Source: Actinomycetota bacterium
GTDB taxonomy: Bacteria; Actinomycetota; Actinomycetes; Propionibacteriales; Nocardioidaceae
Assembly: GCA_009702305.1 (NCBI GenBank)
Contig: WLIH01000115.1
Span: forward strand, 1 to 7,612
Direction: 5' to 3'
DNA length: 7,612 nucleotides
The position numbers and the translations under genes were made by a program. A model generated the notes under the pieces. The model was not told where the DNA came from and made no database searches. It saw only the letters and a list, made by a program, of their open reading frames with translations. Numbering within the stretch: the stretch's first letter is position 1; the number at the start of each line of letters is the position of its first letter. Shown here in pieces: positions 355-6,855 of this stretch.

Positions 355-696
355 ATGAGGTTCACACGCAACCCACCACGTGACTCCCGCAACATCTTGT
401 TCGCCGCCTCCCTCGAGTTCGGCAAGAACTGGATGCGCCCAATCTCCGATCTGGCGGCAGAACGCATTGGCAACGAGCCAAGCGAGGTCCAAGAAACATT
501 GTCGGCCGAGATCGAGTCAACTCGTGCAGGCATCAATGAATGGATCCAACAAAGATGGGATTCGGTCAATGGCAAGTGGCGGACACCGGACACCGCCGCC
601 GCAAGCTCATGGGTGGTGGCTTCCTACCCGTGGATGGACAAGCGCAACATAAAACGTGCGATCAGTCAGGGTTGTTACTACGCACACCACGGCTGA
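355..696 (+). CDS. Hypothetical protein, 113 aa, second gene of a two-gene unit
   Basis: I do not recognise a family. The protein is 113 residues and basic at both ends, with no membrane segment or signal peptide. The first part reads NILFAASLEFGKNWMRPI. An acidic helical middle follows (about residues 33-60, with EVQETLSAEIESTRAGINEW). The C-terminus is rich in Trp, Lys and Arg (YPWMDKRNIKRAISQGCYY) and ends in HHG. The start at 355 follows a good AGGGAG site, and the gene begins 2 bp after the stop of its partner, which argues that the pair works together. It converges on the detached rlmN tail; its stop is 51 bp from that remnant's stop. No strong terminator hairpin was found in the gap. 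GC and codon use match the rest of the foreign-looking region. The ORF is probably real but its function is unknown. Confidence 0.6.
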   Translation: MRFTRNPPRDSRNILFAASLEFGKNWMRPISDLAAERIGNEPSEVQETLSAEIESTRAGINEWIQQRWDSVNGKWRTPDTAAASSWVVASYPWMDKRNIKRAISQGCYYAHHG

Positions 697-747: not shown

Positions 748-935
748 TCACTCTTTGGCCGCCAGCTGTCCGCAGGCGCCGTCGATGTCACTGCCTCGAG
801 TGTCACGCACGGTGGTCGGGATGCCCTTGGCAATCAACCGCCGAACAAACTCTGCCTCGTCCGCCGGATTGGAGGCCGTCCACTTCGAATTCTCGATCGG
901 ATTCAATGGGATGAGTTCTGCTTAACATGCGCCCA
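748..935 (-). pseudogene. Detached remnant of an rlmN 3' end (second, diverged RlmN C-terminal tail)
   Basis: The minus strand from 909 down to a TGA at 748-750 encodes 54 residues that align without gaps to the last 54 residues of the intact RlmN at 1412-2560. I count 37 of 54 identical. Shared blocks include [16 protein letters not shown] and ACGQLAA, the last holding the catalytic cysteine. This copy has IPLNPI and SKWTAS, which look closer to typical actinobacterial RlmN than the intact gene's own tail. Upstream, 922-935 still matches the rlmN codons for Trp, His and Val, but about 5 extra bases break the frame and a stop (922-924) follows. Nothing resembling the radical-SAM body lies further upstream. 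It has no start and cannot make an enzyme. Third positions are 40 of 54 G/C, unlike the host genes. Confidence 0.85.
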
Positions 936-971
936 AGACATTCAGGGCAGGTGACTCTTAGCCGGGGTACA

Positions 972-1403
972 TCAGGTATTCAGCCAGTCACGAAAAATGT
1001 CTTCCTCAGTCGCATCTGGACGCCAAGTCGTTGGCCTCACCCAGACGACTGATGCGATCCCGCACACCCGAGATCCTTCATACATTCGCAGAACCGACCC
1101 CTCAGTCAGGTCGGCCCACGGGGCGTGCTCCGGGAAGAGCCCGACGATGACCGCCCGCACCTCGCTACCCGGAGCGATGTCCCCCTCCGAAAAGCCGAAC
1201 ACTGGTCCAGCAGTCTGCTCGCCATCCGCCCATCCCGGGAACCCCCAGTTAGGTCGGTACGTGAACCGCTGCTCAGGATCCGAACCCCCGAGCAACGACG
1301 TGCGTCGGCCACCTTCCGTTGTCGGCAAGACACGGAGGTCAAGCGCTACTGCGAAGGTCCTGACCGCTTCCACAAGACGAGCATAGGGTTGCCGCAGATC
1401 CAC
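972..1403 (-). CDS. Orphan EF-Tu domain 3-like beta-barrel protein, 143 aa
   Basis: Residues about 20-123 resemble the third (C-terminal) beta-barrel domain of elongation factor Tu. LRVLPTTEGGRRT (23-35) matches the EF-Tu strand ending in EGGRHT. DIAPGSEVRAVIVGL (75-89) matches the segment after MPGDN. LTEGSVLRMYEGSRVCGIA (99-117) matches the segment ending in FAIREGGRTVGAG. The GTPase domain and domain 2 are absent, so it cannot act as an elongation factor; function is unknown. In EF-Tu this domain contacts tRNA and EF-Ts, so a translation-linked or decoy role is only conjecture. The chosen start is GTG at 1403, 8 bp after the rlmN stop, with a weak AGGTAG before it; transcription from the rlmN operon is therefore likely. 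Relaxed codon use matches the foreign rlmN tail beside it. Confidence 0.7.
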   Translation of the reverse strand: MDLRQPYARLVEAVRTFAVALDLRVLPTTEGGRRTSLLGGSDPEQRFTYRPNWGFPGWADGEQTAGPVFGFSEGDIAPGSEVRAVIVGLFPEHAPWADLTEGSVLRMYEGSRVCGIASVVWVRPTTWRPDATEEDIFRDWLNT

Positions 1404-1411
1404 CGGGCTAC

Positions 1412-2560
1412 CTATTCCAGCGCCGCCAGCTGCCCACAGGCAGCATCAATCTCGCTCCCCCGAGTGTCCCGAACGGTCGTGGGTACGCCCTTGGATTCCA
1501 ACCGACGGACAAACTCGTCCATATCTTCGTCCCGAGACCGAGTGAACCTTGAACCCTGGATTTCGTTCAAAGGGATCAGGTTGACGTGCACCCAGCCCCA
1601 GTCGCCGTAGGAGCGCAGCACCTCGCCGAGCAGGTCGGCGCGCCAGGCCTGGTCGTTGATGCCGCGCATCATGGCGTACTCGATCGAGACACGGCGCTTG
1701 GTCGTCTGCGCGTAGTCCCAGGCCGCCTCGACCGTCTCGGCGACCGAGAAGCGGGTGTTGATCGGCACCAGCTCGTTGCGCAGCTCGTCGTCCGGGGCGT
1801 GCAGGCTCAGCGCGAGCGTGACCGGGATGCCCTCGGTCGTGAGCTGGCGGATCCGCGGCACCAGACCGACCGTCGAGACCGTGATGCCGCGCGCGGACAT
1901 GCCGAGCCCGTCGGGAGCGGGGTCGACGAGACGGCGTACGGCGCCGATCACCGCGTTGTAGTTGGCGAGCGGCTCGCCCATGCCCATGAACACGACGTTG
2001 GAGACCCGGCCAGGGCCGCCCGGCACCTCGCCGCGGGCCATCGAGCGGGCGCCGGCGACGACCTGCTCGACGATCTCGGCGGTCGACATGTTGCGCTGGA
2101 GACCGCCCTGACCGGTGGCGCAGAAGGGGCAGGCCATGCCGCAGCCGGCCTGGCTGGAGACGCACACGGTGGCGCGGTCGGGGTAGCGCATCAGCACCGA
2201 CTCGACGAGCGCACCGTCGAACAGCTTCCACAGCGTCTTGCGGGTGGTGCCCTTGTCCGCCTCGAGAGTGCGCAGCGGCGTCATCAGCGGCGGCAGCAGG
2301 GCGGCGACGAGATCGGAGCGCTGAGCGGCCGGGAGGTCGGTCATCTGCTCGGGGTCGTCGACGAGGCGCGCGAAGTAGTGGGTCGAGAGCTGCTTGGCCC
2401 GGAAGCCCGGCAGCCCCTGCTCCTCCAGCAGCGCCTTGCGCTCGGCGGAGGTGAGGTCGGCGAGGTGGCGCGGAGGCTTCTTGCGACCACGCGGCTCGTC
2501 GAAGACCAGCGGCAACGGCGTGGTGCCGGCGGCGGGTGTCGGGGCAGGAGTATCGGACAT
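1412..2560 (-). CDS. rlmN: RlmN, dual-specificity 23S rRNA A2503 / tRNA A37 C2-methyltransferase, with a foreign 3' end
   Basis: This radical-SAM enzyme methylates C2 of adenine in 23S rRNA and certain tRNAs. The 382-residue length is usual. The N-terminal accessory domain covers about residues 30-110. The iron-sulfur cysteines are C140, C144 and C147 (CGMACPFC). C133 sits 7 residues before the cluster, where E. coli has C118. GMGEPLANY is the SAM-binding GEP motif. The partner catalytic cysteine, equivalent to E. coli C355, is C375 in ACGQLAA. The ATG at 2560 follows GGGAGA by 11 bases. The gene is a mosaic: the last 54 codons (I329 to E382) have 35 of 54 G/C third positions, against 53 of 54 just before them, and the tail departs from the usual actinobacterial sequence ([11 protein letters not shown]). 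All key residues remain, so activity is expected. Confidence 0.95.
1571..1594. other. Candidate recombination junction (att-like site) inside rlmN
   Basis: Codon use switches from host-like to foreign-like at about 1576, and similarity to the detached tail runs out at 1594. The matching stretch in the remnant is 908-935. Shared blocks are GGGAT followed closely by AG, then 11 of 14 identical bases at 1581-1594 versus 922-935, separated by 1 base here and 6 in the remnant. A crossover point within these 24 bases would explain both observations. No integrase is seen, so recognition as an attachment site is unproven. Confidence 0.4.
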
Positions 2561-3028: not shown

Positions 3029-3558
3029 TCGCTGAGGCTAGCCGCTGCGAGGTGCCCGGGCAGGGTGATCAGCGCAGGCATCGGCATCGACCTCAGCCGC
3101 TCCAGATCGGGCTCGTCACCGGTCAGGGCCGACAGCAGTGCCGTCCACGCGGTGCCGTGACCGACGAGCACCACGTCCGCGGAGCCGTGCAGCCTCCAGA
3201 TCGTCGCGACGGTGCGCACGATCCGGGCACGCAGCGCGGTCACGCTCTCCCACCCGTCGTACGCCGGGAGGTCGGGTCGGGCGAACGCGTCGCGCACGAG
3301 CCCGGCGAGGTCGTCGACCCAGCCGCTGCGACCCTGCTCGCGCAGGTCGTCGACCACGCCCACCTCGGCGTCGGTCAGCAGCTGGGCGGTCTGGATCGCC
3401 TTCGGCTCCGGTGAGCAGAACCACGTGGCCCCGACCGGGAGCCGGTCGCGCACCGCCCAGACGTCGTCGAAGCCCGCCGGATCCAGCTCCCAGGCGTGCG
3501 CAGGGACGGCCGGGTCCAGCACGGGCCGGCCGTGGCGCACGAGATGCAGGGCGCTCAT
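3025..3558 (-). CDS. Histidine phosphatase (phosphoglycerate mutase-like) family protein
   Basis: The 177-residue protein opens with LVRHGRPVL, the RHG signature of the histidine phosphatase superfamily. H9 is the expected phospho-accepting residue and R8 a phosphate ligand. SPEPKAIQTAQLL (49-61) is the usual second motif, with Lys where Arg is common. REQGRSGW (73-80) can supply the acid, and VGHGTAW (132-138) contains the second catalytic histidine, H134. All core residues are present, so it is probably an active phosphatase or mutase; the substrate cannot be read from sequence. The length is short, as in stand-alone phosphatases of the SixA/CobC/broad-specificity type. The ATG at 3558 lies 16 bp after the cdsA stop, and its end overlaps the next gene by four bases. 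It is thus part of the cdsA-to-rlmN transcription unit. Confidence 0.85.
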   Translation of the reverse strand: MSALHLVRHGRPVLDPAVPAHAWELDPAGFDDVWAVRDRLPVGATWFCSPEPKAIQTAQLLTDAEVGVVDDLREQGRSGWVDDLAGLVRDAFARPDLPAYDGWESVTALRARIVRTVATIWRLHGSADVVLVGHGTAWTALLSALTGDEPDLERLRSMPMPALITLPGHLAAASLSE

Positions 3559-6772: not shown

Positions 6773-6802
6773 GCAGATCTGTGGGTGGTGGGGTGTCCGC
6801 GC

Positions 6803-6843
6803 GTGACGCCGTCCGCGAACCGACGGTTCGCGGACGGCGTCAC
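6803..6843 (-). terminator. Perfect 19-bp hairpin between rpsB and tsf (terminator or attenuator)
   Basis: The arms GTGACGCCGTCCGCGAACC (6803-6821) and its exact reverse complement (6825-6843) are separated by only three bases. The hairpin starts 12 bp after the rpsB stop and ends 46 bp before the tsf start. There is no U-tract after it on the transcribed strand. Because tsf normally shares the rpsB transcript, this stem may act as a partial terminator or an mRNA-stabilising end that sets the ratio of S2 to EF-Ts. It is symmetrical, so it would fold on either strand. Confidence 0.65.
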
Positions 6844-6855
6844 ACACCGAACGGA

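Follow-up and report, generated by a model that had tools for sequence, protein, structure and literature searches.

Staphylococcal SCC elements enter rlmH (orfX) by means of Ccr serine recombinases and restore only a few codons of the gene, and e14 and phage 21 of Escherichia coli are integrase-carrying prophages in icd. The units found here at the 3' end of rlmN resemble SCC in lying at the 3' end of an rRNA methyltransferase gene and in being able to stack, and they resemble e14 and phage 21 in supplying the host gene with a substitute 3' end.

Cis-mobilizable elements (CIMEs) are defined in the excerpts of PMC7563491, where they are described at the 3' ends of genes in Streptococcus salivarius, CIMEs and microCIMEs lying at the ends of rpmG, rpsI, fda and rplL. 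They share with the rlmN units their position at 3' ends of protein-coding genes, the flanking attachment sites, the cargo without an integrase and the tandem arrangement, whereas the S. salivarius elements stand in tandem with integrase-carrying ICEs or IMEs and no autonomous element was found at rlmN. According to the same excerpts, classical CIMEs of 1.2-13 kb carry cargo and microCIMEs of 130-220 bp carry none, while the smallest rlmN units measure 664 and 692 bp and hold one ORF each. The rlmN units also replace about 54 codons of the target gene, unlike the S. salivarius CIMEs as the excerpts of PMC7563491 describe them. The gene rlmN itself has been reported as the target of an actinomycete ICE (AICE): AICE03, which has 11-nt repeats, is integrated in this gene in Streptomyces RLB3-6 (excerpts of PMC9513070). 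AICE03 thus shares with our units an actinobacterial rlmN as its place and repeats of about the length of the ATCCCGCTSAA stretch described below, and differs in being an AICE with traB, an integrase and an excisionase. The initial annotation of this DNA had left open whether rlmN was a described site; given AICE03 (PMC9513070, excerpts), rlmN cannot count as a wholly undescribed one, and what is unreported in the open-licence literature searched are the one-gene tail-bearing units and the recurrent exchange of tails at rlmN. The excerpts of PMC11983580 concern an RlmN-like resistance enzyme.

The window, i.e. the whole stretch of 7,612 nt that was analysed, is the entire contig C19 of a draft assembly (G000; 478 contigs, 75.6% complete). 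In it a host-like rlmN body is joined to a foreign tail (Table 1), the body being at most 94% identical at the amino acid level to the bodies of genus relatives having another tail class. The initial annotation had described two foreign-looking rlmN tails in tandem around a unit of about 660 bp with one cargo gene, and this layout was confirmed in both length and in-frame codon use. The displaced tail matches the attached one with 66% amino acid identity (E 1.7e-17), and the DNA of the two is 77% alike over 95 nt (E 4.6e-15). It is a fragment and no gene, with an in-frame TAA directly before it. Upstream of rlmN, between two genes of the conserved cluster, the window also holds a strong inverted repeat (6796-6850, 27-nt arms, 89% complementary), perhaps a terminator.

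Table 1. Features of the rlmN locus on contig C19 (the window) and on contig C36 of the same assembly.
Feature	Position	Strand	Basis
rlmN ORF	1412-2560	-	ORF
Body of rlmN as far as the crossover, codon use host-like	1577..2560	-	ORF; GC3 0.96, last 600 nt
Crossover stretch, here ATCCCTTTGAAC	1565..1576	-	Starts of displaced tails; identity drop just after it in close pairs of different class
Attached foreign tail A, 54 codons and stop, with cysteine aligned to E. coli Cys355	1412..1576	-	In-frame GC3 0.65; alignment to 3rf9
Unit 1, 664 bp from crossover to crossover, single ORF	913-1576
Cargo ORF of unit 1, 143 aa	972..1403	-	ORF call; no Pfam, PADLOC or PDB match
Distal arm of unit 1, bordering displaced tail B, containing GGGCGCATGTTAA	913..957	-	Fixed-register agreement with other displaced-tail arms
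Displaced tail B, element-derived, begins unit 2	748..912	-	Sequence match; in-frame GC3 0.74
ORF of unit 2, 113 aa; unit 2 runs off the contig	355..696	+	ORF call; no Pfam or PADLOC match
ORF of unit 2, 101 aa	47..352	+	ORF call; no Pfam or PADLOC match
Native-type tail	C36:2376-2549	+	Sequence match; GC3 0.96
Fourth tail (tail C), cut by the contig edge	C36:1-120		Sequence match

A third, host-like rlmN tail of high GC3 had been predicted, and it is present on contig C36, which holds two further rlmN tails of the same assembly, a MmyB-type regulator and a short-chain dehydrogenase being encoded between them. The native-type tail is followed by host genes for a glycosyltransferase, a SLOG-like protein and a RIO-domain protein. 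In 100 rlmN loci fetched from the genus, out of 191 genomes with a match, these genes follow rlmN in 63, 90 and 74 loci, respectively, and at least one of them does so within the fetched stretch in 98. As the same three genes follow rlmN in the relatives, the native-type tail can be assigned to the rlmN locus of the window, C19 and C36 being separated by an unread gap and not joined by sequence. The four tails on the two contigs imply at least three stacked insertions, so that the stacking proposed initially stands, with a minimum of three events instead of two.

The genus, the family and the class were searched for second tails. The tail query matched 191 of 196 genus genomes, and displaced rlmN tails were found in five of them, i.e. 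the window's assembly (G000), G052, G081, G135 and G186, short or decayed tails being liable to escape such a search. The family search (311 of 324 genomes matched) added G979, and five family genomes besides that of the window thus carry displaced tails. The class search (376 of 393 matched) gave three candidates outside the family, none of which has a displaced tail, and in another genus (g23, presumably Streptomyces) all 392 of 392 genomes matched, one having two full rlmN genes. Second tail matches in six further genomes were dropped, those of G212 and G347, judged on the match alone, lying in a full-length frame with 45% identity, that of G308 belonging to a tandem rlmN copy and those of G017, G728 and G1015 to two rlmN genes in genomes with contamination of 9, 6 and 4%. 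G308 belongs to another family and has a genome of 1.4 Mb, in which rlmN is almost completely duplicated in tandem (L206:323-2423, oriented). The best tail E-values of the 191 genus genomes fall into two groups, 46 at 1e-25 to 1e-18 and the rest at 9e-31 or better, which points to two tail classes, A and D.

The cleanest case is G979, in which rlmN ends in a third tail class (GC3 0.78 vs 0.97 in the body) and is followed by a 692-bp unit with one 129-aa ORF, then by a native-type tail and by host genes collinear over 6 kb with those of the single-tail relative G994. The other units measure 5955 bp (G081), 3652 and 972 bp (G186), 4336 bp (G052) and 2012 bp (G135), and their cargo differs apart from one gene common to G081 and G135. 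In three of the six genomes the attached tail has clearly foreign codon use (GC3 0.65 in G000, 0.72 in G186 and 0.78 in G979), the values in G052 (0.91), G081 (0.94) and G135 (0.98) giving no foreign signal. The displaced tail and the DNA following it align with a single-tail relative in five of the six cases; in G135, where the displaced tail is broken and stops at codon 35, only the DNA after it aligns with relatives, the tail itself being absent from the listed alignments. Rather than lacking second tails and variable cargo, the relatives show displaced tails and differing cargo at one fixed point, and the idea of the initial annotation, that the rlmN 3' end is an integration site at which elements bring replacement tails, holds. 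An error of assembly or binning, or a tandem duplication of the rlmN end, might be suspected from the draft state of the host assembly with its 478 contigs and from the position of tail C at a contig edge. This is scarcely credible, as the same layout is found in the better assemblies of G979 (6 contigs) and G135 (3 contigs), and a duplication would not give attached and displaced tails of different sequence class as seen in G000 and G979.

A single codon of IPLN, at ATCCCGCTSAAC, is the start of all eight displaced tails that can be read, tail C being left out as it is cut by the contig edge. The crossover stretch has this sequence in most relatives read, as against the form listed for the window in Table 1, and G052 and G979 differ in its first codon. 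In four of the eight tails the sequence weakly resembles rlmN for up to four more codons upstream, and the arm of G979 holds an extra copy of rlmN sequence, so that the crossover is located to this stretch and not to an exact base. Without the G979 arm, which was excluded because of this extra copy, seven arms agree in a fixed register, with a summed majority count of 177 vs 144.6 (sd 5.0) and none of 5000 shuffles as good; leaving out G135 as well, the count is 151 vs 127.7, again with 0 of 5000. As units related by descent would share their arms too, this agreement supports an element family as much as a recombination site. Attachment sites can be inferred at both ends of a unit, the tail with the ATCCC stretch forming one and the arm with the ATCCC stretch the other.

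The exchange of tails is recurrent. Trees of the rlmN body comprised 108 genes (48 of class A, which was over-sampled by choice, 57 of D and 3 of E), one of 109 having been dropped as too short, and they require a minimum of 18 (DNA) or 19 (protein) changes of tail class, the means for shuffled labels being 38.0 and 37.9. With the labels A and D, well-supported branches force 8-10 changes. The trees were built by a quick method and the lengths of their deep branches are odd, so that only the local groupings are trustworthy. Most class-A genomes have no second tail, and the exchange in them is therefore read from the tree. Among 5778 gene pairs, 437 were close (body at least 87% identical), and 95 of these had a divergent tail (less than 78% identity), 94 of them being of different class. 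As the class is defined by the tail, divergence there is expected, and the point is that nothing upstream is disturbed, divergence in five equal upstream windows of the 437 pairs being counted 1, 0, 0, 0 and 0 times. In different-class pairs mean identity drops from 0.92 over the 12 nt that start at ATCCC to 0.44 over the 12 nt that follow, the same-class values being 0.96 and 0.81, and all 14 hand-picked different-class pairs have their change point at +5 to +18 nt from ATCCC. The cysteine aligned with E. coli C355 (alignment to 3rf9), which we take to be the catalytic one, falls in the exchanged part.

Ordinary homologous recombination between strains, swapping tails and downstream cargo without a site-specific step, would also produce a mosaic rlmN and fits the swapped tails that have no island. 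We regard it as very unlikely, as the change point is the same in all 14 pairs and the upstream body is undisturbed in the 437 close pairs, the arms share a fixed-register motif, and a replacement would leave no displaced native-type tail, yet one remains.

ORFs of at least 100 aa (6267 in 121 rlmN loci) were searched with a profile built from 28 integrases and with a single query for large serine recombinases. The islands of the 121 loci yielded no integrase gene, the gap between C19 and C36, which could hold one, lying outside this search and recombinases that are shorter than 100 aa or very distant being liable to be missed by it; the integrase gene predicted near rlmN by the initial annotation was thus not borne out in these islands. 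Two integrase hits were obtained, neither in an island, one about 6 kb upstream of rlmN (L203), presumably xerC, and one 11 kb downstream (L133). The large serine recombinase query had no hit in the 121 loci, a distant Ccr being liable to be missed with one query only, and on this result an assignment of the units to SCC was rejected. A motif scan for integrases in 100 loci gave four hits, all false. Besides, 20 cargo ORFs scanned with Pfam contained no integrase, conjugation or mobilization, rep or traB gene, apart from one IS-type transposase, which lies in the first unit of G186; with no integrase in the islands and no rep or traB among these ORFs, an assignment to AICEs was rejected too. 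Neither was an autonomous related element with an integrase found at rlmN in the 121 loci. An integron-cassette reading was rejected, as the folding of five junction stretches is not better than that of shuffled sequences (z -0.86 to 0.85) and so shows no attC-like single-strand site, and no integron integrase was found beside the array in the search of the 121 loci. With putative attachment sites at both ends and no integrase or mobilization genes found outside the unread gap between C19 and C36, the rlmN units resemble CIMEs that might have been stacked by accretion.

XerCD, inserting the units at a dif-like site, would explain units that have no integrase; its xerC is presumably upstream in the same gene cluster, and G052, G081, G135 and G979 have their best Phage_integrase matches on the rlmN contig, at a distance of 7-14 kb from the gene. 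This is extremely improbable, as dif was found once each in five of six genomes, and in comparisons of dif with the junctions only 3 of 42 were matched by at most 10 of 200 shuffles, which is about chance. For the same reason the units were not classed as a Xer-dependent element (IMEX), the junctions showing no dif-like attachment site.

The units could also be plain relics of ordinary integrative or conjugative elements that entered rlmN and lost their integrase and transfer genes, so that nothing is moved in trans now. Such decay is described for Streptomyces AICEs and for CIMEs in the excerpts of PMC9513070 and PMC7563491, and the transposase in the G186 island and the broken displaced tail in G135 are in keeping with it. 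Against it, two units in distant members of the family are equally compact (664 and 692 bp, one ORF each), and no integrase-bearing element was seen at rlmN in the 121 loci. We consider it a possibility to be taken seriously, if a tentative one.

On balance, the rlmN 3' end is probably a site-specific attachment site at ATCCCGCTSAAC for small tail-carrying units in which no integrase gene was found. As no such gene was found, both the recombinase and the mechanism are inferred. A circular unit composed of arm, ATCCC stretch, tail and cargo would recombine with rlmN at the same stretch by means of a tyrosine or serine recombinase, either one acting in trans, e.g. from a conjugative element or phage that shares the site, or one whose gene has since been deleted. 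The six displaced-tail genomes have 2 to 18 Phage_integrase matches elsewhere, with 7 in G979, which makes a trans-acting enzyme possible and singles out none. After insertion, the rlmN frame would stay open, its last 54 codons or so coming from the replacement tail, and the native tail would be pushed downstream. The unit may carry a tail because the tail holds the residue aligned with E. coli Cys355, as an insertion without one would be expected to disable RlmN. Repeated insertion would stack the units in the manner of CIME accretion, and genomes that later lost the cargo and the displaced tail would show a swapped tail and no island.

CIME-like units at the 3' ends of genes are of a known kind. 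What appears to be new is rlmN as the target in this family, the units with a single ORF and the repeated swapping of the tail with the catalytic cysteine. Insertions carrying the segment with the residue that aligns with the catalytic cysteine have apparently rewritten a core rRNA-modifying enzyme repeatedly at a single position, on the trees at least 18 times among 108 genes. Small integrase-less units, which integrase-based searches miss, have a simple mark in a second gene tail downstream. Such units may be common, relatives of a single cargo gene being found also between the duplicated ends of another protein gene in G052 and next to the repeated tRNA-like end in G161 (both below). A wider reading, which we think unlikely, is a cassette economy without a resident integrase, in which one-gene units use the functional end of a host enzyme gene as their site, a recombinase in trans loads rlmN and other gene ends, and each capture swaps the catalytic-cysteine tail of RlmN, the enzyme being rewritten repeatedly across the family.

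The rlmN tail was matched in 21 phage records, all below 60% identity, and in 63 plasmid records, of which three were at 60-90%, and it had no match in viral contigs; the 143-aa cargo of the window was found neither in viral contigs nor in plasmids. This cargo has 46 homologues besides itself, those named being in records of Mumia, Arthrobacter, Kribbella, Aeromicrobium, Paenarthrobacter and Agromyces, and nine genome loci with a relative of it had no rlmN tail in the fetched stretch. A likeness to EF-Tu domain 3 was considered for it and dropped, as PDB and Pfam searches showed none. Ten cargo ORFs compared with PADLOC matched no anti-phage family, and one ORF of G081 matches Pfam ApeA_NTD1. 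In the G081 unit (L070:3113-6257) this ORF with the ApeA N-terminal domain and one matching an IrrE-type peptidase below the cut-off are followed by a 143-aa ORF. Relatives of the 370-aa cargo common to G081 and G135 occur in 10 of the 196 genomes of the genus, the two copies at rlmN being 90% alike, five elsewhere being at 44-55% (three with internal stops) and three of the 10 being weak partial matches. Between G081 and G135 the DNA of the units is 88% alike and that of the longer host stretches 80-85%, a likeness that would fit transfer and is no proof of it.

Apart from rlmN, relatives of these cargo genes were observed at other repeats. In G052 (L258:1331-1482 and 3057-3208; G052:C19; also L262) a 152-bp direct repeat (94%) corresponds to the 3' end of a reductive-aminase-like gene and flanks two ORFs, one of which is related to the G081/G135 cargo, a layout like that of rlmN at a different protein gene; no integrase hit was obtained in the 16-kb stretch around it. 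In G161 (L264:8815-8916 and 12564-12666; G161:C7) a 103-bp direct repeat (96%) is like a tRNA 3' end, ARAGORN calling no tRNA there, and a relative of the G081/G135 cargo lies beside, not between, the two copies. In Nocardioides sp. Root190 (L210:1947-9296) a tyrosine recombinase gene stands beside an array of small ORFs with repeats around GCTCCGACAGCGGCATGGTCGGGCG; the array looks like an integron-like cassette array, and one of its ORFs is related to the cargo of the window.
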